Below, piece after piece: positions 29,389 to 42,954 of a stretch of DNA of 64,000 nt. A program made the translations under genes and the position numbers. The stretch's first letter is position 1; the number at the start of each line of letters is the position of its first letter. The stretch is taken from contig NZ_JASISZ010000010.1 in assembly GCF_030063355.1 (NCBI RefSeq), forward strand, positions 1-64,000. The letters run 5' to 3'. The stretch comes from Streptomyces sp. PH10-H1 (GTDB lineage: Bacteria; Actinomycetota; Actinomycetes; Streptomycetales; Streptomycetaceae). The notes under the pieces are model-generated. The model made no database searches. It saw only the letters and a list, made by a program, of their open reading frames with translations, and had not been told where the DNA came from.

Positions 29389-29967
29389 CTACCGCAGGCG
29401 CGCCATCAGGGCGTGTTCCACGAGTGTGATCAGCGCGGACTTGGCCTCGCCGCGGTGGCGGGCGTCCGTGGTGATGATCGGTGCCTCGGGCCCGATCTGC
29501 AGGGCCTCGCGCACCTCCTCGGGACCGTACGGCTGGTGGCCGTCGAAGCCGTTCAGGGCTATGACGAACGGCAGGCCGCTGTTCTCGAAGTAGTCGACGG
29601 CCGGGAAACAGTCCGCCAGCCGCCGGGTGTCGACCAGGACGACGGCGCCGATCGCGCCACGCACCAGGTCGTCCCACATGAACCAGAACCGGTCCTGGCC
29701 CGGGGTGCCGAACAGGTACAGGATCAGGTCCTCGTCCAGCGTGATGCGGCCGAAGTCCATCGCCACGGTGGTCGTGGTCTTGTCAGGCGCGTGCGTCAGG
29801 TCGTCGATGCCGGCTGATGCGGAGGTCATCACAGCTTCGGTGCGCAGCGGATTGATCTCCGAAACGGCGCCGACGAACGTGGTTTTGCCCACGCCGAACC
29901 CGCCCGCCACCACGATCTTCGCGGAGGTGGTGGAACGGGTCGCGCCGTTAGAGCTTCCGAAGTCCAC
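29389..29967 (-). CDS. cvnD: conservon GTP-binding protein CvnD (first conservon)
   Basis: This 192-residue Ras-like GTPase is the last gene of conservon 1. P-loop GGFGVGKTTFVGAVSEI, a switch region with PDKTTTTVAMDFGRI, FGTPGQDRFWFMW in place of DxxG, and ALNGFDG in place of the usual NKxD are visible. Conservon GTPases are membrane-recruited partners of CvnA, B and C. GTG 29967 is chosen with GAAAGGG six bases upstream, the same position as in the second conservon. Its 5' end overlaps cvnC. It is closely similar to CvnD of conservon 2 (34436-35041), most strongly over the GTPase core. Confidence 0.92.
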   Translation of the reverse strand: MDFGSSNGATRSTTSAKIVVAGGFGVGKTTFVGAVSEINPLRTEAVMTSASAGIDDLTHAPDKTTTTVAMDFGRITLDEDLILYLFGTPGQDRFWFMWDDLVRGAIGAVVLVDTRRLADCFPAVDYFENSGLPFVIALNGFDGHQPYGPEEVREALQIGPEAPIITTDARHRGEAKSALITLVEHALMARLR

Positions 29968-30478
29968 TGAGAACCCTTTCAAGCAATGTCACTTCTGGCT
30001 GACCACCCGCGGACTCGTCACCACCGGGCTGGTGGACGGCGACCAGACCGGCTTCGGCGAGGTCGGCGACGAGAATCCGGGCGACGCCGAGAGGGATCGA
30101 CAGCAGCGCGGAGATCTCCGCGACCGACTTGATCTCCCGGCAGAGAATGCAGATCCGCTGGTGTTCCGGCAACTGCCCGCGCAGCTGGGCGGGATCGGCC
30201 GTCGTACTGACCAACGCCTCGATGGCGAGCTGGTAACGCGGCCGGGTCCGGCCACCGGTCATGGCGTACGGCCTGACCAGCCCGGAGGGCGCCTGGGCGC
30301 GCGGCCGGCCGGACGTGGACCGCGGCGGCGGGGCCTGCGGCGGCTCGTACGGCTGGATCCGGGGCTGCCGGTAGCGGGGCTCGGGCTCAGGAGTCGGAGC
30401 CGAGGGGAAGTTGAAGCGGTTCAGAGGCGGCTGCTGTTGCTGGCTGCCGTACGGATCTCCGCCTGGTGGCGTTGTCAC
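29948..30478 (-). CDS. cvnC: conservon DUF742 protein CvnC (first conservon)
   Basis: This 176-residue protein has a Pro/Gln-rich N-terminal part (PYGSQQQQPPLNRF, PEPRYRQPRIQPYEPPQAPP) followed by the DUF742 winged-helix-like domain: LVRPYAMTGGRTRPRYQLAI, CREIKSVAEISALLSIPLGVARIL and VTLLERVLSGLRKL. GTG 30478 is preceded by GGAGGAGG, an excellent site. It overlaps cvnD by 20 bp. In conservons CvnC contacts CvnA and CvnD at the membrane. The linker is longer than in conservon 2, whose CvnC is 135 residues. Confidence 0.92.
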   Translation of the reverse strand: MTTPPGGDPYGSQQQQPPLNRFNFPSAPTPEPEPRYRQPRIQPYEPPQAPPPRSTSGRPRAQAPSGLVRPYAMTGGRTRPRYQLAIEALVSTTADPAQLRGQLPEHQRICILCREIKSVAEISALLSIPLGVARILVADLAEAGLVAVHQPGGDESAGGQPEVTLLERVLSGLRKL

Positions 30479-30577
30479 GGTTCCTCCTCCTGATGAGGTT
30501 GTGGGGGCTGCGTTCCCGCACCCTATGGGTACGGGGACGCGCCCGCACGCCTGTCCGTTAGTTGAGCAGGCACCCAA

Positions 30578-30991
30578 TTAATTGAGAAGGCTGCCTTGCA
30601 GTTCCGAGCGGAGGTCGGGGGTGAGGACGGTCCCGGTCCGGTCGACGAGCAGTGCCATTTCGTAGCCCACGAGGCCGATGTCGCATTCGGGGTGGGCGAG
30701 TACGGCGATGGAGGAGCCCTCGGAGACGGACATGATGAAGAGGAAACCGCGTTCCATCTCCACGACGGTCTGGTTGACCGCGCCGCCTTCGAAGATGCGG
30801 GAGGCTCCGGCGGTGAGCGAGGTCAGGCCGGAGGCGACGGCGGCGAGCTGGTCCGCGCGGTCGCGAGGGAAGCCCTCGGACATCGCGAGCAGCAGGCCGT
30901 CGGCGGAGACCACCACCGTGTGGGACACCCCAGGGGTGTTGTCCACGAAGTTGGTGATCAACCAGTTCAGATTCTGTGCCGCCTGGCTCAT
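30578..30991 (-). CDS. cvnB: conservon roadblock/LC7 protein CvnB (first conservon)
   Basis: This 137-residue roadblock-fold protein starts MSQAAQNLNWLITNFVDN and includes SHTVVVSADGLLLAMSEGFP and ERGFLFIMSVSEGSSIAVL. It forms dimers that probably regulate the CvnD GTPase. ATG 30991 is chosen; a TTG at 31000 with GGAG six bases upstream is an alternative that adds three residues. The coding DNA is identical to cvnB of conservon 2 (35497-35910), although the neighbouring genes have diverged. This is a sign of gene conversion. Confidence 0.93.
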   Translation of the reverse strand: MSQAAQNLNWLITNFVDNTPGVSHTVVVSADGLLLAMSEGFPRDRADQLAAVASGLTSLTAGASRIFEGGAVNQTVVEMERGFLFIMSVSEGSSIAVLAHPECDIGLVGYEMALLVDRTGTVLTPDLRSELQGSLLN

Positions 30992-31000
30992 CGGACTCAA

Positions 31001-34000
31001 CTAACGCTCCTGGTTCTGAGGGCCACCGTAGTGATTGTCGGGGGCCTGGCCGTTCGTGTCAGTTCCCGCAGTGCGTCCCTGCTGGACGCCGCGGCGCAGA
31101 TTACTCAACCGGCCGCGGACGTCCTCCGGCGCGCGGGAGACCTGTGGGCCGCCCTGCGGAGTCTGCTGTGCGGTGCCCGCGACCAGGTTGGCCTTGGGCA
31201 CTCGACGGGGCAGGCCGGAGGGGGTTACCCCACCTGCCTTCGGCTCGCGGACCTGTTCGGCCCGCTGCCAGTGCTGGTCGTTCTGGGAACGCCAGTCGGT
31301 CTCGTCCTGCTCCGGCGCCTGTTCCGGCTCCGGATCGGGCTGAGGGGCCGGCGGTGCCGCTGCCGCCTCGTCGGGTTGAGGCCACTGCCGGTCACGGCGC
31401 GGCAGGCCGGGTTCCGTCAGCGAGGGGGAGCCTACGCTCTCCGGTGCCCCGAAGGAGGTTCCGGGAACGGATTCCGGTCCGGGCCGGTCCTGGTACGCCG
31501 TGGGCTGCACCCAGTCGTCCAGAACGGGTGGGGCGGGAGGTCCGGAAGGTGCGGGCTGGGCGGCGAAGTCCTGCTGCCACTCCGGCTCGTACGGCGCCTG
31601 TTGCTGATACGCGGGCTGCCCGTACTCGTCCTGGCCGCTGTACTCCCGCTGCCCGGTGAAGTCCTGCCCCGGGTAGTCCTGGCCCTCGGCGTAGCCGCCG
31701 TCGTACTGCGGCTCGTAGCCCTGCCGGCCCTGCTGCTGGGGGACCTCCTCGCGGTACACCGGAACGTCCTCCTGCCGGTCGGAGGCCGAGGCCTCCAGCT
31801 GGGCCCTGCGCTCCTCGCGCAGCAGTGAGCGGCCGACGGGGTCGAGCTGTCCGGTGCCGGGGGCCGCGAACGCGGACTCGTCGGAGCGCTGGTACTTCGA
31901 GTCGTCGAAGCCCAGCTCGGCGGCGGTCGGCTGGTAGCCGAACTCGGCGGTCGGTTGCTCGGGGACGATCCGCGACACGGTGAAGTCCGGCTCGTCGTCG
32001 GGCAGTTGGTCCTCGCCGCCGCCACCGTGGGTGATCAGCTCCGGGAGCATGACCAGCGAGGTGGTGCCGGCCTGCTCGCCCGAGGGGCGCAGCTGGACGC
32101 GGACGCCGTGCCGGTCGGCCAGCCGGCCGACCACGAACAGGCCCATGCGCTGGGAGATCGCGACATCCACGGTCGGCGGATCGGCCAGCTTGTGGTTGAT
32201 GTCCGCGAAGTCCTCGGCGGTCAGGCCGATGCCCCGGTCGTGGATCTCGACCATGACGCGGCCGTCCGGCAGCCGGGTCGCGGTGACCCGCACCTTGGTC
32301 TGCGGCGAGGAGAACGTGGTGGCGTTCTCCAGCAGCTCGGCCAGCAGGTGCACGAGGTCGGTCACGGCGGTGCCGTGGATTTCCGTCTCCGGTATGCCGA
32401 CCAGCTCGATGCGCTCGTACGCCTCCACCTCGGAGGCCGCGGCGCGCAGCACGTCGACGAGCGGGACCGGCTGGTTCCAGCGGCGGCCCGGCTCCTCGCC
32501 GGCGAGGACCAGCAGGTTCTCGCCGTTGCGGCGCATACGGGTGGCGAGGTGGTCCATCTTGAAGAGGTTCTCGAGCTGGTCCGGGTCCGCCTCGTTGTTC
32601 TCCAGCTCGGTGATCAGCGTGAGCTGCCGCTGGATGAGGCCCTGGTTCCGGCGCGAGAGGTTGGTGAAGATCGCGTTGACGTTGCCCCGCAGCAATGCCT
32701 GCTCGGCGGCGAGCCGGACGGCCTCGCGGTGCACCTGGTCGAAGGCGCGGGCGACCTCGCCGATCTCGTCGTGGCTGGTGATCGGAATCGGCTGGACGGT
32801 GGTGTCCACCCGGCCCGGGTCGGTACGCGACAGCTGGTCGACCAGCCCCGGCAGCCGCTGTTCAGCGACGTCGAAGGCGGCGTTGCGCAGCTTGCGCATG
32901 CTGCGGCTCATGTTGCGGGCCATCATGCCCGCGACGATGAAGGCGATGATCAGCGCGAGGACGACGATGACCGCGTTGACGATCGCGTCGGTCTTGGCGC
33001 CGGACGCGATGGTCTCCGCGTCGTTCACGGCGGTGTCGGCGAGGTGCTGCTCAACGGTCCGGTAGGCGTCGAAGGCGAGCGTCGTGGTGCCGAACCAGCT
33101 CTCCGGCGTGATGCCCTCGGCCTTGAGCTCCTTGGCCGACTTGTCCGAGGCGATCTCGGCGACCATCTTCTCCATCGACGGCGGGGGCACCAGCTTCGCG
33201 CCGGCCGCCGCTGCTTCCGTGGCGGCGGCGGTGAACTGCTCCTCGCCCTTCTTCTGCGCGGCGGCCTGGGCGTCCTTCAGCCGCTGCACATCGGCGGGGG
33301 TACCGCCGCCCTGATACTCCTGGATCGCGATGCCCTGGAGATACAGGTACGAGGTGAGGGCGGTCTGCTGGAGCTTGCGCTCCTTGGCCGGCACCTGGCC
33401 CTCGATCTGGATGTGCATGCCGATGGAGCGGGTCAGCGACTCGGCGGCCTTGGCCAGCGAGATGGCGTAGAGCGTGCGGCCGTAGCTGGTGATGTTGCCG
33501 GTGCCGAGACCGAGCTCGTTGGCCAGCTCCATCAGCGGGTGCTGGATGCCGACGTACGCCTCTTCGGTCTGCTTGTCCGGCAGCTGCCGGGTGTAGGCGG
33601 CCTGGCGCAGCTTCTGCAGTCCCGGCTCGACTGTGCGGAAGCCGTCCACCCGGCGCCTGAGGCCCTCGGTGGAGGGCATCTGGCGGACCGCTTCGTTGAA
33701 GGTCTCAGCGGCGGCGTCGGTGGCCGCGTAGGCCCCCGTCACGGCGGGATCGGTGCGCTTGCCCTGCAGCAGGGGAACGACGGTCACGTCGCGCTCGTTG
33801 ATCAAGGCGTGGCTGTAGCCGGCCGCGGCGCGCACCAGGATGGCGGTGCGCTTGGCGGCGTCCGCCTGCTGCCAGGTCTGCACGGAGTTCTGCACCGTGA
33901 AGCCGCCCATGGCCAGAGCGACGAGAACCGGGATGAGGAGGATGGCGTTCAGCCGGGTGGCCACCCGCCAGTTGCGCACGGCGAAGCGGCTGCGGGATCC

Positions 34001-34123
34001 CGCGGGCGTCTCAGGGGCGGCGACCGCGGCAGTATCGGGCGCGCCGTCGTACCGCGGGGGCGGCGTGAAATTGCCCCGGGGGCCTTCTGCGGAGCCCGGC
34101 TCCGCTCGCCTGGTGTTCCTCAC
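31001..34123 (-). CDS. cvnA: conservon sensor histidine kinase-like protein CvnA (first conservon)
   Basis: This 1040-residue membrane protein has an N-terminal membrane segment (LNAILLIPVLVALAMGGFTV), an extracytoplasmic helical domain of the nitrate/nitrite-sensing (NIT) type, and a second segment (VNAVIVVLALIIAFIVAGMMA). A HAMP region, a helical region with GNVNAIFTNLSRRNQGLIQRQ, and a HATPase_c domain (LLAELLENATTFSSPQTKV, DRGIGLTAEDF, MGLFVVGRLADRHG) follow. There is no clear HisKA phosphoacceptor box, normal for CvnA. A Gln/Tyr/Pro-rich linker follows, then a C-terminal motif shared with the other CvnA. GTG 34123 is taken as start; upstream GAGAGG. Confidence 0.92.
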   Translation of the reverse strand: MRNTRRAEPGSAEGPRGNFTPPPRYDGAPDTAAVAAPETPAGSRSRFAVRNWRVATRLNAILLIPVLVALAMGGFTVQNSVQTWQQADAAKRTAILVRAAAGYSHALINERDVTVVPLLQGKRTDPAVTGAYAATDAAAETFNEAVRQMPSTEGLRRRVDGFRTVEPGLQKLRQAAYTRQLPDKQTEEAYVGIQHPLMELANELGLGTGNITSYGRTLYAISLAKAAESLTRSIGMHIQIEGQVPAKERKLQQTALTSYLYLQGIAIQEYQGGGTPADVQRLKDAQAAAQKKGEEQFTAAATEAAAAGAKLVPPPSMEKMVAEIASDKSAKELKAEGITPESWFGTTTLAFDAYRTVEQHLADTAVNDAETIASGAKTDAIVNAVIVVLALIIAFIVAGMMARNMSRSMRKLRNAAFDVAEQRLPGLVDQLSRTDPGRVDTTVQPIPITSHDEIGEVARAFDQVHREAVRLAAEQALLRGNVNAIFTNLSRRNQGLIQRQLTLITELENNEADPDQLENLFKMDHLATRMRRNGENLLVLAGEEPGRRWNQPVPLVDVLRAAASEVEAYERIELVGIPETEIHGTAVTDLVHLLAELLENATTFSSPQTKVRVTATRLPDGRVMVEIHDRGIGLTAEDFADINHKLADPPTVDVAISQRMGLFVVGRLADRHGVRVQLRPSGEQAGTTSLVMLPELITHGGGGEDQLPDDEPDFTVSRIVPEQPTAEFGYQPTAAELGFDDSKYQRSDESAFAAPGTGQLDPVGRSLLREERRAQLEASASDRQEDVPVYREEVPQQQGRQGYEPQYDGGYAEGQDYPGQDFTGQREYSGQDEYGQPAYQQQAPYEPEWQQDFAAQPAPSGPPAPPVLDDWVQPTAYQDRPGPESVPGTSFGAPESVGSPSLTEPGLPRRDRQWPQPDEAAAAPPAPQPDPEPEQAPEQDETDWRSQNDQHWQRAEQVREPKAGGVTPSGLPRRVPKANLVAGTAQQTPQGGPQVSRAPEDVRGRLSNLRRGVQQGRTAGTDTNGQAPDNHYGGPQNQER

Positions 34124-34435
34124 TCGACCAACAACCTCTCGGCGACAACACAGCAATGTGCCGTTACTACTCACGGGTTCTGCGAATTTCAGCACGTCAT
34201 GGGGGTGCTAGCCAAACGTCGTACGGAGTGCAACGAACGATCGAACGGGGCTATATAAATAAGGCATAAGCTCAATGAGGGGGCAAACCGCACCGTTCGC
34301 ATCACCCCTACGGAACCAGTCGAGCGCGGGGGGTGTTCATCGCACGCTGATTCTCTGTCGAAACGTTATGAACGCAAGAACCGGCCGTGTCAAAAGACAC
34401 AGCCGGTCCTGGAGGCAACTGCCGAACTGGAGAGC
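34124..34435 (-). other. intergenic region between the two conservons
   Basis: This 312-bp gap contains the upstream region of conservon 1, including an AT-richer stretch (TATATAAATAAGGCATAAGC, 34251-34270) likely to hold its promoter. It also contains the terminator of conservon 2 at 34380-34407. No extra gene is evident. Confidence 0.5.
34380..34407 (-). terminator. terminator of the second conservon
   Basis: ACCGGC-C-GTGTC pairs with GACAC-A-GCCGGT across an AAAA loop with one internal mismatch. It lies about 30 bases beyond the cvnD stop. Confidence 0.65.
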
Positions 34436-35919: not shown

Positions 35920-38900
35920 CTAACGCTCCTGGTTATTCGTGCCGAAGCCCCGGCCGTCGGTGTTGCCATTGCCTGCCTCGCGGCCCTGCTGGATGCCGCG
36001 CCGGAGGTTCGTCAGCCGCCCGCGCACATCATCGGGCGCCCGGGAGACCTGCGGGCCGCCCTGCGGGGCCGCCTGGGGGGTGGCCCCGCCCGCGACCAGG
36101 TTGGCCTTGGGTACGCGACGGGGCAGCCCGGAAGGGGTCACCCCGCCCGCCGACGGCTCGCGGACCTGCTCGGCCCGCTGCCGGAGTTCATCGTTGGGCG
36201 AAGTGCGCCAGTTCGGCGTCTCGCGGGGCATCGGCTGCGTCGGCTGGGCCGGCGCGGCCGGCCGCTGCGGTGCGGCGGACGGAGCCGGCGCGGGCTGCTC
36301 GGCCCGCGCCCGCTGGGGCTGCTGCTGCACCGGCAGCGGCTGCTGGGGCTGGGACGGCTGCGCAGCCGGCCGGGGCTGCGGCGCCGCGGGACGGGCCGGA
36401 GCCGCGGGCGCTGCGGGCGCCGCCGCCGCGCTCTCGACGTGCACCTGCTGCATCCGCTCGGCCTGACCGGTACGGAACCAGTCGGACTCGATCGCTGCGA
36501 AGATCGGCGTCGGCTCGTCACCGCGCGACGGGGCCGGCGGCAGCGCCATCGGCTCCGAGACCGGCGGCAGTTGCGGCTCGGTGCCTCGGTTGGGCTGCCG
36601 GTTGGCCTGCTGCTGGAACCCCTGCTGCTGGTTGCCCTGCTGCGGGTAACCCTGCGGCTGTCCCGGCTGTCCCTGCGGTCCCGACTGGTTGCCGGCGAAC
36701 CCGCCGTCGGCCGGGGATCCGCCGCGCTGCGGCAGACCCTGCCGGTCCTGGGACGGGACGCGCTGGCCCGGGTACGGCTCGGCCTGCGGCCGGCCGTTGA
36801 CCGGGGGCGTACCGGGCACCGGGAACTGGCCGGTGTCGCTGCCGTTCGGGTAGTCGCTGCCACGGGGACCGCTCTGCGGGCCGCCCGGCAGCGGGAACTC
36901 GCCGGTTCCGCTGTTACCCGGGTTGCCGGGACGCGGGAACTCACCGCTGGGGGAGCCCGGCTGGTGCGCGTCGGGGCGTGCTCCGCCGCGTACCGGGTTC
37001 GGGCCCTGCGCTCCGCCGAACACGTCGGAACGGAAGCCGCCGGGTCCCGCGTCCTGCGCCGTGGGCGCCGGGTAGTGGTTCGGGGACGGGGCGAACGGGT
37101 CGCCGAGCGGCAGCCCCGCGTCCTGCCGGGAGCCCGCACCGGGACCGGCATTGGGGCGCTGGTAGTCGCCACGCGGCTGCGGGGACACCGGACGGCCGCC
37201 GGGCGGCGGACCGTCGAAGTCGGGGCGCTCGAACCGGGCGGTGGACTCCACGTCCTCGTGGCCGCGCGGAGTGTCCTGCGAGGGGCTGCGGTCGCCGGAG
37301 CCGCCGGGGGGCGGCGGGGGGAAGCCCTGCGGGGGCCCGCCGCGCTGCGGCTGGCCCTGCTGCGGCTGGCCGTCGCCCTGGGCCCAGCTCGGACCGGACG
37401 GCTGCGGCTGGCCCTGAGGCTGGCCGTTCTGGGGGGCACCACCCGCGCGGCGTGCGCCCGAGCCGGGAGCACCCGGGCCGCCGGGACCGCCTGCCGGGCC
37501 GGAGTTCAGTGCCGGGCGCGGTCCGGTGCCCGCGACCTGGCCGCGTTGCGGCGGCCGGCCGACCTGTCCCGCGGGACCGGCGGCGGCGCCGAAGGCGTTG
37601 GTGGCGGAGGCGCCGGGCCCGTTGGGGGTACCGGGCATGCCCGTGGCGATGGGGCCGCGCTTGCCGGCGGCCGCGTTCTTGGCGTTCTGGCCGCCCTGCG
37701 TGACGTCCACCGGCAGCATGACGAGCGCGGTGGTGCCGCCGGAGTCCGACGGGCGCAGCTGGATACGGATGCCGTGTCGCAGCGACAGCCGGCCGACCAC
37801 GAACAGGCCCATGCGGCGCGAGACCGAGACGTCCACGGTCGGCGGGTTGGCGAGGCGCTCGTTGATGTCCGACAGGTCCTCGGGCGAGAGCCCGATTCCC
37901 GTGTCGTGGATCTCGATCAGCACCCGGCCGTCCGGCAGCGCGTGGCCGGTGACCTTCACCTTGGTCTGCGGGGAGGAGAACGAGGTGGCGTTCTCCAGCA
38001 GCTCGGCGAGCAGGTGGACGAGGTCGTTGACGATACGGCCGGTGACCTCGGCGGCGGGCACCGAGGTGAGCTCGATGCGCTCGTACTGCTCCACCTCGGA
38101 GGCCGCGGCGCGCAGCACGTCGACCAGCGGGACCGGGCGGGTCCAGCGGCGGCCCGGCTCCTCGCCCGCGAGGACGAGGAGGTTCTCGCCGTTACGGCGC
38201 ATACGGGTCGCGAGGTGGTCGAGCTTGAAGAGGCTGGACAGCTGGTCCGGGTCCGCCTCGCGGCTCTCCAGCTCGGAGATGAGCGAGAGCTGGCGCTGGA
38301 TGAGGCCCTGGCTGCGGCGCGAGAGGTTGGTGAACATCGCGTTGACGTTGCCTCGCAGCAGCGCCTGCTCGGCGGCGAGCCGGACGGCCTCGCTGTGGAC
38401 CTCGTCGAACGCGCGGGCCACCTGGCCGATCTCGTCACGGCTGTGGATACCGATCGAGACGACGGAGGTGTCGACGTCCTGCGGGTCGGACTCCGACAGC
38501 TGCTTGACCAGCTCGGGCAGCCGCTTCTGGGCGACGTCCTGGGCGGTGTCCTGCAGGCGGCGCAGCGAGCGGATCATCGAGCGGGCCACGATGAAGGCGC
38601 CGACGACGGCGACACCGAGGACGATCAGGATGATCGCACCGTCGATGATCGCCTGGCGCTGGGCCTCGCCACGCAGTTTGAGGGCCTGCTGCTGCATCTC
38701 GTTGAGCAGCGACCGCTCGATGTTGGTCATCGCCTGGATCTTGCTGCGGGCGGCGTCGTCCCAGTCGCGGTACGTGGCGCCGGTGGCGGCGAAGGTGTCG
38801 ATGCCGTGCTGCGAGTTGAGGATCCGCGTCGCGTTGGTGTCGTGGTTCTTGATCGTGTCGTTGCCGCCCTCGAGGGGCGCCATGAGCTCGACGGCGTCGG

Positions 38901-39798
38901 CGCCGCCGTAGATCTTCCCGAACCGGGTGAGCGCGGTCTTCTCGGACTGGGCGGCGGCCTTGGCGTACTGCCAGTCGTTCTCGGAGAGCGAGGCACCGGC
39001 CTGCGGGGCGAGCGCGGCGCTGATCACCGCACGCTGGATGGACTCGAACTCCTTGGCCGAGGAGAACGCGGCCAGCGCGCGGGTGCTGCGGATCATCTCC
39101 TGGTTGCTGGTCGCCTGCGCCATGTCCTGGGACAGCGAGAGCAGCGACTGGATGAGCGAGTCGTACTTGTTGACCGTCAGCGCGATGTACTGCGGCTGCG
39201 TGTAGGCCTGGTCACGGATCTCGTTGATGCCGCCCAGCTGCTGCTCGATGGCGAGCAGGGTGGAACGGACACCGACGAAGACCTGGTCGTTCGGGTCGAC
39301 GTCGTCGGTGGTGCTCTGGAACAGCTTGCGGAAGCGGTCGGTCGCCTCCCGGGAGGCCCCGACGGCGTCGTCGCTCTTGCCGGTGCCCGAGGACATCGGT
39401 CCCGCGGAGCGGTCCCGCTCCTCCTGCAGCGCACCGGCGAGGTCGGTGGCGTGCTCGGTGATCTGGGTGAGCTGCTTCATGTGCTCGAGCTGGGTGATGT
39501 TGTCCAGCGAGCTCGAGATACGCAGCGCACCGAGCGAGGTCGCGGCGACCACCGGCAGGGCGAGCAGTGAGATCAGACGGGTGCTGATCCGCCAGTTGCG
39601 CATGGCTATTCGGGGGCCCGGCTTGCCGACGCCGCCCGTGATCCGGCCGGCGTCGATGCCGCTGTGCGTGGTTGAGCGTCCGGCGGCCGCGGTGTTCACG
39701 GCGTCGTCGGATCGCTGCGGCGACGGACCGCTGTTGGCTCCGCCGGGCTGCTCCGGGTCGCCCGCAGCGCCGCTGTCCCTCTTGAAACGTCCCTGCAC
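35920..39798 (-). CDS. cvnA: conservon sensor histidine kinase-like protein CvnA (second conservon)
   Basis: This protein of about 1292 residues is larger than its neighbour. After a cytoplasmic N-terminal tail come a membrane segment (LISLLALPVVAATSLGALRI), a NIT-type helical sensor region, a second segment (IDGAIILIVLGVAVVGAFIVA), HAMP and a HATPase_c domain (LLAELLENATSFSSPQTKV, DTGIGLSPEDL, MGLFVVGRLSLRHG). A disordered Gly/Pro/Gln-rich region of about 500 residues follows, ending in the shared C-terminal motif. GTG 39798 is chosen with AGAGG upstream; GTG 39834 is possible. cvnB begins right after its stop. No HisKA box is seen. Confidence 0.92.
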   Translation of the reverse strand: MQGRFKRDSGAAGDPEQPGGANSGPSPQRSDDAVNTAAAGRSTTHSGIDAGRITGGVGKPGPRIAMRNWRISTRLISLLALPVVAATSLGALRISSSLDNITQLEHMKQLTQITEHATDLAGALQEERDRSAGPMSSGTGKSDDAVGASREATDRFRKLFQSTTDDVDPNDQVFVGVRSTLLAIEQQLGGINEIRDQAYTQPQYIALTVNKYDSLIQSLLSLSQDMAQATSNQEMIRSTRALAAFSSAKEFESIQRAVISAALAPQAGASLSENDWQYAKAAAQSEKTALTRFGKIYGGADAVELMAPLEGGNDTIKNHDTNATRILNSQHGIDTFAATGATYRDWDDAARSKIQAMTNIERSLLNEMQQQALKLRGEAQRQAIIDGAIILIVLGVAVVGAFIVARSMIRSLRRLQDTAQDVAQKRLPELVKQLSESDPQDVDTSVVSIGIHSRDEIGQVARAFDEVHSEAVRLAAEQALLRGNVNAMFTNLSRRSQGLIQRQLSLISELESREADPDQLSSLFKLDHLATRMRRNGENLLVLAGEEPGRRWTRPVPLVDVLRAAASEVEQYERIELTSVPAAEVTGRIVNDLVHLLAELLENATSFSSPQTKVKVTGHALPDGRVLIEIHDTGIGLSPEDLSDINERLANPPTVDVSVSRRMGLFVVGRLSLRHGIRIQLRPSDSGGTTALVMLPVDVTQGGQNAKNAAAGKRGPIATGMPGTPNGPGASATNAFGAAAGPAGQVGRPPQRGQVAGTGPRPALNSGPAGGPGGPGAPGSGARRAGGAPQNGQPQGQPQPSGPSWAQGDGQPQQGQPQRGGPPQGFPPPPPGGSGDRSPSQDTPRGHEDVESTARFERPDFDGPPPGGRPVSPQPRGDYQRPNAGPGAGSRQDAGLPLGDPFAPSPNHYPAPTAQDAGPGGFRSDVFGGAQGPNPVRGGARPDAHQPGSPSGEFPRPGNPGNSGTGEFPLPGGPQSGPRGSDYPNGSDTGQFPVPGTPPVNGRPQAEPYPGQRVPSQDRQGLPQRGGSPADGGFAGNQSGPQGQPGQPQGYPQQGNQQQGFQQQANRQPNRGTEPQLPPVSEPMALPPAPSRGDEPTPIFAAIESDWFRTGQAERMQQVHVESAAAAPAAPAAPARPAAPQPRPAAQPSQPQQPLPVQQQPQRARAEQPAPAPSAAPQRPAAPAQPTQPMPRETPNWRTSPNDELRQRAEQVREPSAGGVTPSGLPRRVPKANLVAGGATPQAAPQGGPQVSRAPDDVRGRLTNLRRGIQQGREAGNGNTDGRGFGTNNQER

Positions 39799-40390
39799 TA
39801 GCGTCGCAACCTCTGGACCAGGCGTCCCCCGCACGTGCGGCGGGACGGTGTCGAGTCATGGGGGCCCCGGTCACCCCGGAGTAGGGATGAACCGACGATG
39901 CCCTTCACCGCCGCTCGATGCTCGAACGCGCCCCCTGACGCGCTGGCTCGATAGATGTGGCGGTCCGGGGAATTCCAGCACAGTGCAGGATCTCCAACAA
40001 GGCCCGCAGCCCAGTCAGTGGAATGAGTGACTGGATGCAGTGGTCCGAGCACGGAGCGTCTAGGTCCGTTTCGGAGAAAGCCCGCGATTCTGGAACTTTT
40101 GGGCACCACAGGACGGTCCGGGCAGGCTGACCCGGTCGTTCCGGAGCGGGGGGTAACGTCCGGGAACCGCCGCAATGTCCGCTTCGGTTGCCGGGATGGG
40201 GCGTCCGATTAGGGCTGTATGTCGGGTAGTTCGTGAGCAAAATCACAACAGGATCGTTGCCTGGGTCACGGAAATCGGGGAACTGTCGCCACTAGCCTGG
40301 ATCTTTACGCAAGGCAGCGTGCTGTAAACCAGGGAATCCGCAGACCCGCGCCCGACCGGGCGCCTCAACCCCCCGAGGCCCAGACACCAC
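39799..40390. other. 592-bp intergenic region upstream of the second conservon and the 60-residue ORF
   Basis: This is the longest gap with no convincing gene. It should hold the minus-strand promoter of conservon 2 and a plus-strand promoter for the ORF at 40391. The right half is AT-richer (GAGCAAAATCACAACAGGAT near 40233; ACTAGCCTGGATCTTTACGC near 40293), with TAGCCT as a possible -10. I found no tRNA, long palindrome or riboswitch-like pattern. Confidence 0.4.
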
Positions 40391-40573
40391 ATGAAGACCA
40401 CCATGCTGTTCCGTCCGATCGCCAACCCGCGCCGCACGACCCTCATGCACCTCAAGGATGCCGAGGAGCTGCAGGCCCCGGTGATCGCGGCCGAGGACGT
40501 CATCATGGAGGCGCTGCCGCAGCAGACCGCCAACCCGCGCCGCACGATCCTCATGGACGCGCCCACCGCCTGA
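40391..40573 (+). CDS. 60-residue protein with duplicated ANPRRT-x-LM motif, unknown function
   Basis: This compact ORF has nearly every third codon base G or C, a strong coding sign. The peptide carries ANPRRTTLM near residues 12-20 and ANPRRTILM near residues 48-56, joined by an acidic segment rich in Glu/Asp (DAEELQAPVIAAEDVIMEA). The two 27-base segments (40421-40447 and 40529-40555) differ at one base. GAGG about 12 bases before the ATG is a weak ribosome-binding site. It is divergent from conservon 2 and 130 bp upstream of the FAH-family gene. I do not recognise a family. A regulatory peptide, precursor peptide or partner of the conservon are all unproven options. Confidence 0.6.
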   Translation: MKTTMLFRPIANPRRTTLMHLKDAEELQAPVIAAEDVIMEALPQQTANPRRTILMDAPTA

Positions 40574-40700: not shown

Positions 40701-41483
40701 GTGCGCATCGCCAGGTTCTCCATCGACGGCAATGTCGCCTTCGGCGCGGTCGAGGGCGACGCGACCGTCCCCGACGGCCTCGTCCTCGACATCATCAAGG
40801 GCATCCCGTTCGCAGAGTTCGCGCTCTCCGGCACCAAGGTGCCGGTGAGCAAGGTCCGGCTCCTGCCGCCGGTGCTCCCGAACAAGGTCGTCGCCATCGG
40901 CCGCAACTACACCGAGCACGCGGCTGAACTGGGCAATGAGGTCCCCACGGTCCCGATCACCTTCTTCAAGCCGTCCACTTCCGTGGTCGGCCCGGGTGAC
41001 CCGATCGTGTACCCCTCGTTCTCGAACGAGGTGCACCACGAGGCCGAGCTGGCCGTCGTGATCAGCCGGCTGTGCCGCGAGGTCCCGCGCGAACGCGTCA
41101 AGGACGTCATCCTCGGATACACCTGCGCCAATGACGTCACCGCACGGGACGCCCAGCGCGCCGAAGGCCAGTGGGCCCGCGCCAAGGGCTTCGACTCCGC
41201 GTGCCCGCTCGGCCCCTGGATCGAGACCGATCTCGACCCCTCGGACCTCGCGATCACCGCGACGGTCAACGGCGAGCTGCGCCAGGCCGGACGGACCAGC
41301 CAGATGGTCCGCTCCATCGAGGACCTGATCGTGCACATCACCGAGGCGATGACGCTGCTCCCGGGCGACGTCATCCTCACCGGCACCCCCGCAGGCGTAG
41401 GACCGCTCAACGTCGGCGACGAGGTCGCCGTCTCCATCGAAGGCATCGGCACTCTCACCAACAAGGTGATCAAGCGTGGCTAG
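40701..41483 (+). CDS. fumarylacetoacetate hydrolase (FAH) family protein
   Basis: This 260-residue protein is a single FAH domain, like 2-hydroxyhepta-2,4-dienedioate isomerases, acylpyruvases and oxaloacetate decarboxylases. Motifs are [47 protein letters not shown] (metal-binding Glu), [29 protein letters not shown] and [17 protein letters not shown]. The start is GTG 40701 with GAGGGG about 13 bases upstream. Its 3' end overlaps gltX by eight bases, so the two are translationally coupled. The precise substrate is unknown. Confidence 0.88.
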
Positions 41484-42954
41484 CGCATCCCCCGTACGTG
41501 TCCGTTTCTGTCCCTCGCCGACCGGTAACCCCCATGTGGGCCTGGTCCGCACCGCCCTGTTCAACTGGGCCTTCGCCCGGCACCACCAGGGCACTCTGGT
41601 CTTCCGCATCGAGGACACCGACGCCGCCCGGGACTCCGAGGAGTCCTACCAGCAGCTGCTCGACTCGATGCGCTGGCTCGGCTTCGACTGGGACGAGGGC
41701 CCCGAGGTCGGCGGCCCGCACGCCCCGTACCGCCAGTCCGAGCGGATGGACATCTACGCGGACGTCGCGAAGAAGCTCCAGGACGCCGGCCACGCCTACG
41801 ACTGCTACTGCACCACGCCCGAGCTGGACGCCCGCCGCGACGCCGCCCGCGCCGCCGGCCGGCCCTCGGGCTACGACGGCCACTGCCGTGACCTCACCGG
41901 TGACCAGGTGGCGGCGTACAAGGCCGAGGGCCGCACCTCGATCGTCCGCTTCCGGATGCCGGACGCGCCGGTCACCTTCACCGACCTGGTGCGCGGCGAG
42001 CTGACCTTCACCCCGGAGAACGTGCCCGACTTCGGCATCGTCCGGGCCAACGGCAAGCCGCTCTACACGCTGGTCAACCCGGTCGACGACGCGCTGATGG
42101 AGATCACCCACGTGCTGCGCGGCGAGGACTTGCTGTCCTCCACCCCGCGGCAGATCGCCCTCTACGGCGCCCTCGCCGCGATCGGCGTCGGCAACGGCAC
42201 CACCCCGGCCTTCGGCCACCTCCCGTACGTCATGGGCGAGGGCAACAAGAAGCTCTCCAAGCGCGACCCGGAGGCCTCGCTCAACCTGTACCGCGAGCGC
42301 GGCTTCCTGCCCGAGGGGCTGCTGAACTACCTGTCGCTGCTCGGCTGGTCGCTGGCCGAGGACCGGGACCTGTTCTCGATGGACGAGATGGTCGCCGCCT
42401 TCGACATCAAGGACGTCAACGCCAACCCGGCGCGCTTCGACCTCAAGAAGTGCGAGCACATCAACGCCGAGCACCTGCGCATGCTGGACGTGAAGACGTT
42501 CATGGCGGCCTGCACCCCGTGGCTGAAGGCCCCGTTCGCGCCCTGGGCGCCCGAGGCGTTCGACCAGGCGGCCTTCGAGGAGATCGCCCCGCACGCCCAG
42601 ACCCGCCTCACCGTCCTCTCGGACATCACAGCCAATGTCGACTTCCTCTTCCTCGATGAGCCCGTGCGGGACGAGGCGTCCTGGCAGAAGGCGATGAAGG
42701 AGGGCTCCGACGCCCTGCTGCGCACCGCCCGCGCCAAGCTCGCCGACGCCGAGTGGGCGGCCGAGCCGCTCAAGGCCGCCGTTCTGGCGGCCGGCGAGGA
42801 GCACGGCCTGAAGCTCGGCAAGGCCCAGGCGCCGGTCCGCGTCGCGGTCACCGGCCGCACGGTCGGCCTGCCGCTCTTCGAGTCCCTCGAGGTGCTGGGC
42901 CGGGAGCGCACCCTGGCCCGTATCGACGCCGCCCTGGCCGAACTCGCCGCCTAG
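41476..42954 (+). CDS. gltX: glutamyl-tRNA synthetase
   Basis: This 492-residue class I synthetase charges tRNA-Glu and probably tRNA-Gln, which is then amidated by GatCAB as in most actinobacteria. The HIGH-like motif is in [21 protein letters not shown], and the KMSKS-like motif is [11 protein letters not shown]. The anticodon-binding region follows ([19 protein letters not shown]). GTG 41476 overlaps the FAH gene. It is closed by a palindromic terminator at 42992, and tRNA-Glu and tRNA-Gln genes lie just downstream, a striking functional neighbourhood. Confidence 0.96.

Follow-up and report, generated by a model that had tools for sequence, protein, structure and literature searches.

A predicted disordered small protein with a duplicated ANPRRT motif, encoded beside a conservon and conserved in the Streptomycetaceae

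The small gene and its genetic neighborhood

The window, that is, the whole stretch of 64,000 nucleotides of Streptomyces sp. PH10-H1 DNA that was analyzed, carries an open reading frame that starts with ATG, ends with TGA and encodes a product of 60 amino acids (Table 1), with the sequence MKTTMLFRPIANPRRTTLMHLKDAEELQAPVIAAEDVIMEALPQQTANPRRTILMDAPTA. The protein begins with MKTT, reaches a first motif ANPRRTTLM, continues through an acidic linker and presents a second motif, ANPRRTILM, shortly before its end; no cysteine is present in the translation. The 27-base segments encoding both motifs differ at a single base, and the repeat can be extended to 34 nt at 91% identity. The duplicated motif in a 60-residue protein next to conservons, the acidic linker between both copies and the strongly coding codon usage, all of them proposed in the original prediction, were confirmed: the GC content by codon position is 0.65/0.45/0.97, which is the usual streptomycete coding pattern, and the homologues show synonymous drift. 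A ribosome-binding-like site precedes the start codon, and G-A-rich sites were observed at the equivalent position in many of the homologues.

Table 1. Features of the small gene and of its neighborhood in the window
Feature	Position	Strand	Remarks
CvnA	35920-39834	-	Divergent conservon histidine kinase (NIT, HAMP and HATPase domains)
Palindrome GTGAGCAAAATCACA (GTGA-N6-TCAC)	40233-40247		Conserved; candidate GlxR/Crp-type site
Promoter-like block GGGGAAC...TAGCCT...CTTTAC	40277-40308	+	Conserved, at a near-constant distance from the palindrome
GAGG, ribosome-binding-like site	40375-40378	+	12 nt 5' of the ATG
Small protein gene	40391-40573	+	60 codons plus TGA; based on homologues, alignments and codon evidence
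First motif copy, ANPRRTTLM	40421-40447	+	ANPRRT core near-invariant among homologues
Acidic linker	40448-40528	+	Net charge -5; sequence variable; 22-46 residues between the motifs in relatives
Second motif copy, ANPRRTILM	40529-40555	+	
FAA hydrolase-family gene (FAH)	40701-41483	+	Downstream neighbor
gltX, glutamyl-tRNA synthetase	41476-42954	+	Downstream neighbor

Homology, synteny and codon evidence together show that this is a true conserved coding gene. Since the motifs are near-invariant in about 145 non-redundant homologues that drift at synonymous positions, the gene is not a product of chance, and the homologues and the codon evidence rule out a chance repeat or a non-coding frame. 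The antisense frame was also open in 145/145 non-redundant homologues; since an open antisense frame is to be expected when genes are this rich in GC, no coding status was assigned to it. In the rest of the genome, two further sites with the potential to encode ANPRRT were observed (G000:C23:11743 and G000:C204:171833), each with a single copy of the motif.

To the left of the small gene, and divergent from it, lie the gene for CvnA (with a NIT domain recognized at E 4.7e-36), roadblock and GTPase-like genes, and then a second conservon set at 29389-34195. The window thus contains, between 29389 and 39834, two conservons in tandem, each of them with a NIT-domain CvnA. In the published numbering of S. 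coelicolor, cvnA1 is SCO5544 and cvnA2 is SCO5540 (PMC9739842). The divergent orientation stated in the original prediction held, but not the conservon number: judging by synteny with that numbering, the neighbor of the small gene would correspond to cvn1 and not to cvn2. By the same synteny, the position of the small gene in S. coelicolor would be SCO5545, of which no mention was found in the literature searched.

In nearly all the family loci inspected, the small gene is located between the divergent cvnA and FAH, generally followed by gltX. Nevertheless, the small gene has been lost in one genus despite retention of the locus, and in another genome it was kept despite the loss of FAH and gltX. 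In the first case (genome G072, assembled in two contigs and 98% complete, locus L182), cvnA, FAH and gltX are all present and the small frame is absent there. In the second one (genome G229, locus L067), FAH and gltX were lost at the locus, and the small gene and cvnA were retained. At this last locus, an acyl-CoA carboxylase-like frame follows the small gene in the place of FAH and gltX.

Distribution and conservation of the motif pair

The genome of PH10-H1 contains one copy of the small gene. In its own genus, 35/35 genomes matched at E up to 1; as the match in G014 (71% complete) was weak (E 0.48) and disappeared with the profile, the safe count is 34/35. In the family, a 34-sequence profile at E 0.01 or better matched 243 of the 249 Streptomycetaceae genomes, from 15 of the 17 genera, a count that rests on profile matches of which a subset was read individually. 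Most of these genomes presented one match, and the named carriers include many Streptomyces species and also Actinacidiphila soli. Three of the six unmatched genomes do carry the small gene on direct reading (G035 at L080, G077 at L078 and G075 at L185); as for the rest, G014 is incomplete, G072 has no such gene at the locus, and G085 was outside the direct reading. The small gene is therefore a near-universal single-copy gene of the Streptomycetaceae, situated in nearly every genome beside the same developmental signalling operon. The refuting outcome named in the original prediction, that no homologues would exist, did not occur.

Outside the Streptomycetaceae, no convincing match was found in the samples of the order, the class and the phylum. 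Weak hits in G048 (the one outside hit that was read) and G072, as well as the first one in G062 (L074), were discarded on reading, given that the paired motif is absent from them; the weak hits in the class and the phylum extend over part of the profile and fall mostly within long frames. Among the genomes of other families whose FAH gene was inspected, neither an adjoining ANPRRT frame nor a cvnA within the flank examined was observed. Searches of phages and plasmids did not match any copy of the small gene, and a mobile, phage or plasmid origin was consequently rejected.

In the 145 non-redundant genes, the residues A-N-P-R-R-T are almost fixed in both copies, and their codons are free to vary; for instance, the first Arg of copy 1 is encoded by CGC (65 genes), CGG (61), CGA (8), CGT (4) or AGG (4). 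It should be noted that the motif search presupposed a similar core shape, so that the independent view of motif conservation comes from the alignments. The conserved unit turned out to be shorter than the ANPRRT-x-LM originally described: ANPRRT stood, the terminal M is not conserved, and the unit is better written as ANPRRT-x-[L/V]. The pN/pS ratios were 0.045 for motif 1 and 0.137 for motif 2 (in a sample of 60 genes), and 0.53 for the linker (66 linkers of 25 residues), whose charge in the relatives is mostly -3 to -6. Purifying selection is thus strong in both motifs, and the linker is under weak constraint.

Two motif copies were present in almost every member read. The copies within one gene are identical on average at 15.9 of 18 bases, versus 15.7 of 18 between genes; this similarity indicates that there is no concerted evolution, and that both copies are held by selection and not by a recent duplication. 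A recent homogenization of the repeat was accordingly not supported. In the deep genera only the two cores are kept, with other N-termini (e.g. MDTISTHRPS), and in G144 the motifs have diverged to ANPQRT and ANVRRT. One homologue (L059:1449-1500, genome G063) has a third TANPRRT, in frame and 5' of the usual start, which suggests that the protein is longer there or that a remnant persists upstream.

The window protein was unmatched in Pfam, NCBIfam, PHROG and PADLOC at E up to 10. When 30 relatives were compared with Pfam and NCBIfam nothing credible appeared, the matches being scattered, limited to single members and with E values from 0.04 to 0.35. In addition, there was no relative of the small protein among the solved structures in the PDB, no paper naming it was found in the literature searched, and Rfam gave no credible match, with which a structured RNA was rejected. 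The small protein is, then, previously undescribed. AlphaFold2, run with 36 sequences, produced a model with a pTM of 0.15 and a mean pLDDT of 63, a value that the shallow alignment of a short protein may lower, with short helices at residues 13-17 and 19-26. This result is consistent with a disordered protein for which no fold is predicted.

The shared upstream region

The region between the small gene and cvnA shows strong conservation and contains a conserved palindrome and a promoter-like block (Table 1). The form GTGA-N6-TCAC was present in 163 of 169 loci (some of them duplicated), mostly as GTGAG[CG]AAA[CA]TCACA, and the relatives present a block GGGAA...TTAGCCT...CTTTACA at a near-constant distance from it. 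In the five genomes searched, the exact pattern occurred once in each, and two of these genomes had, in addition, one site each with a single mismatch. The palindrome agrees with the motif GTG-N8-CAC, which is of the GlxR/Crp type (PMC10033298), and differs from the strict Crp consensus of S. coelicolor, GTG-N6-GNCAC, since one position that is G in this consensus is occupied by A in the window site GTGAGCAAAATCAC. The genome that lacks the small gene, G072, keeps the palindrome (GTGACGAAAATCACAC), which is therefore not specific to the small gene, and in the deepest genera it is found in a shorter form, GTGAAAATCACA. For these reasons we discarded that it is a private operator of the small gene; it may serve cvnA1 or FAH and, in the same way, cvnA1 or FAH/gltX may be the owners of the conserved promoter elements.

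Regarding the developmental regulators, the cvnA1 region is bound by BldD and BldC in ChIP assays (PMC6428758, PMC5859096), and WhiA together with WhiB was found at cvnA1 by the same approach (PMC4850268, PMC6428758), with a peak labelled cvnA1/sven5239 in the WhiA/WhiB figure (PMC4850268). In the relatives, BldD-box-like sequences TNAC-N5-GTNA are enriched upstream, with 124 sites against about 10 when single bases were shuffled, and most of them precede the first motif by 360-400 bases; in the cvnA/small-gene region of the window no such box was found. A gene that is kept by almost all Streptomycetaceae, was not found elsewhere and adjoins a promoter region to which four developmental regulators bind makes a strong candidate for a part in family-specific biology.

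Proposed function and alternatives

Two conserved copies of one motif, joined by a variable linker, are the hallmark of bivalent short-linear-motif proteins. Given that the motif is kept twice, that the linker is little constrained and that no fold is predicted, we lean, with modest confidence, towards the small protein being a lineage-defining, disordered cytoplasmic regulator under developmental control that uses one linear motif twice and binds its partner by avidity. Among the options of the original prediction, a bivalent binding protein was indeed the one that best fitted two near-invariant motifs, a hypervariable linker and predicted disorder. According to this proposal, a flexible acidic spacer would carry an ANPRRT-x-[L/V] element at each end, the first copy being followed by a short, potentially helical LxxLKDAxEL segment. 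The partner would be dimeric or oligomeric, and both copies would dock in one and the same pocket of its subunits; alternatively, the pair would bridge two partner molecules, and the two copies could even serve two different partners. The promoter region shared by cvnA1 and the small gene is bound by the developmental network, which would probably control the expression of the small gene. The binding role, the avidity and the regulation of the small gene, rather than of cvnA1 alone, are what we infer.

Some resemblance exists with CrsL (MSMEG_5890/Rv3489), a short disordered actinobacterial regulator that binds CarD and offers a precedent for the proposal (PMC12709188). Both are actinobacterial proteins of similar size with a conserved short segment; CrsL is disordered when alone, as is predicted for the small protein, whose regulatory role would be a further likeness. 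In contrast, conservation in CrsL is limited to a single region, which includes MLGIGP; CrsL shows no reported duplication of ANPRRT, has CarD as its known partner and ranges widely among actinobacteria, and MLGIGP was absent from all members of the small-protein family in both alignments. From a different point of view, CP12-type proteins are short disordered bivalent linkers that use two different elements with cysteines. To our knowledge there is no sequence relation between them and the small protein; they are comparable in that a short chain, predicted to be disordered in the case of the small protein, carries a binding element (here putative) near each end. The small protein differs in using one motif twice and in having no cysteine.

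The linkage makes the Cvn1 proteins one candidate partner for the bivalent regulator, yet G072 shows that cvnA1 can exist without the small gene, and we regard this identification as possible although doubtful. It leads to a special case of the bivalent binder, with a named partner, in which the small protein would be a dedicated Cvn1 accessory whose motifs modulate signalling by binding either CvnA1, the dimeric kinase, or CvnB1, the roadblock protein. The constant position beside the divergent cvnA1 in the family loci inspected, kept even where FAH and gltX were lost (L067), speaks for this role, and CvnF8 offers the precedent of an accessory acting on CvnA kinases (PMC13343842). However, besides the case of G072, no such gene was seen next to the other conservon (the second one) in the window, as the genome carries a single copy. 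Furthermore, the known accessories, which are the GAF protein CvnF and the cytochrome P450 CvnE, accompany CvnA proteins without sensory domain (PMC13343842). The small gene is likewise linked to a cvnA locus, but its product has no recognized domain, GAF and P450 being absent, and the neighboring CvnA does have a sensory NIT domain. Taken together, a dedicated accessory role appears rather doubtful to us, and the linkage to cvnA1 could reflect inertia rather than function. With similar caution, we contemplate that the bivalent protein might be a family-defining regulator that clamps, by means of its doubled motif, a dimeric Cvn1 component or another developmental machine. If this were true, ANPRRT would be a new docking motif, and the small protein would provide the missing connection from the Bld/Whi network to conservon signalling. 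The motif is also a simple mutational handle for finding the partner and for learning whether a small protein takes part in conservon signalling.

Two other binding modes seem unlikely. The basic Asn-Pro-Arg-Arg core, in two copies and without a fold, would suit a nucleic-acid binder in which two NPRR turns grip DNA or RNA (we take NPRR to form an Asx-Pro turn resembling the SPKK/SPXX motifs), but the linker is acidic, and the strictly conserved flanking A, T and L suggest a shaped protein pocket over simple charge. Improbable to a similar degree is a phospho-switch in which a Ser/Thr kinase would modify the ANPRRT Thr and an FHA-type domain would recognize the phosphorylated form: this Thr is invariant in both copies and Ser/Thr kinases are numerous in streptomycetes, but conservation is about equal over all six core residues.

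The original prediction had also considered modified-peptide precursors and signalling peptides, and a small protein with a repeated motif could evoke a RiPP or a signal with two core repeats. The locus is, however, constant, with cvnA, FAH and gltX as conserved neighbors and no modifying (maturation), protease or export gene; the protein has neither a visible secretion signal nor cysteines, and it did not match any precursor family. The lack of maturation genes and of a secretion signal, together with the near-universal single-copy distribution, disfavors these options, and we consider them very improbable. Finally, a leader peptide or attenuator, which a short frame immediately 5' of FAH and gltX on the same strand could recall, is hardly credible, as selection acts on the amino acids with synonymous change free, a scan for a terminator-like site was negative, Rfam gave nothing credible, and the small gene is retained at L067, where FAH and gltX have been lost.
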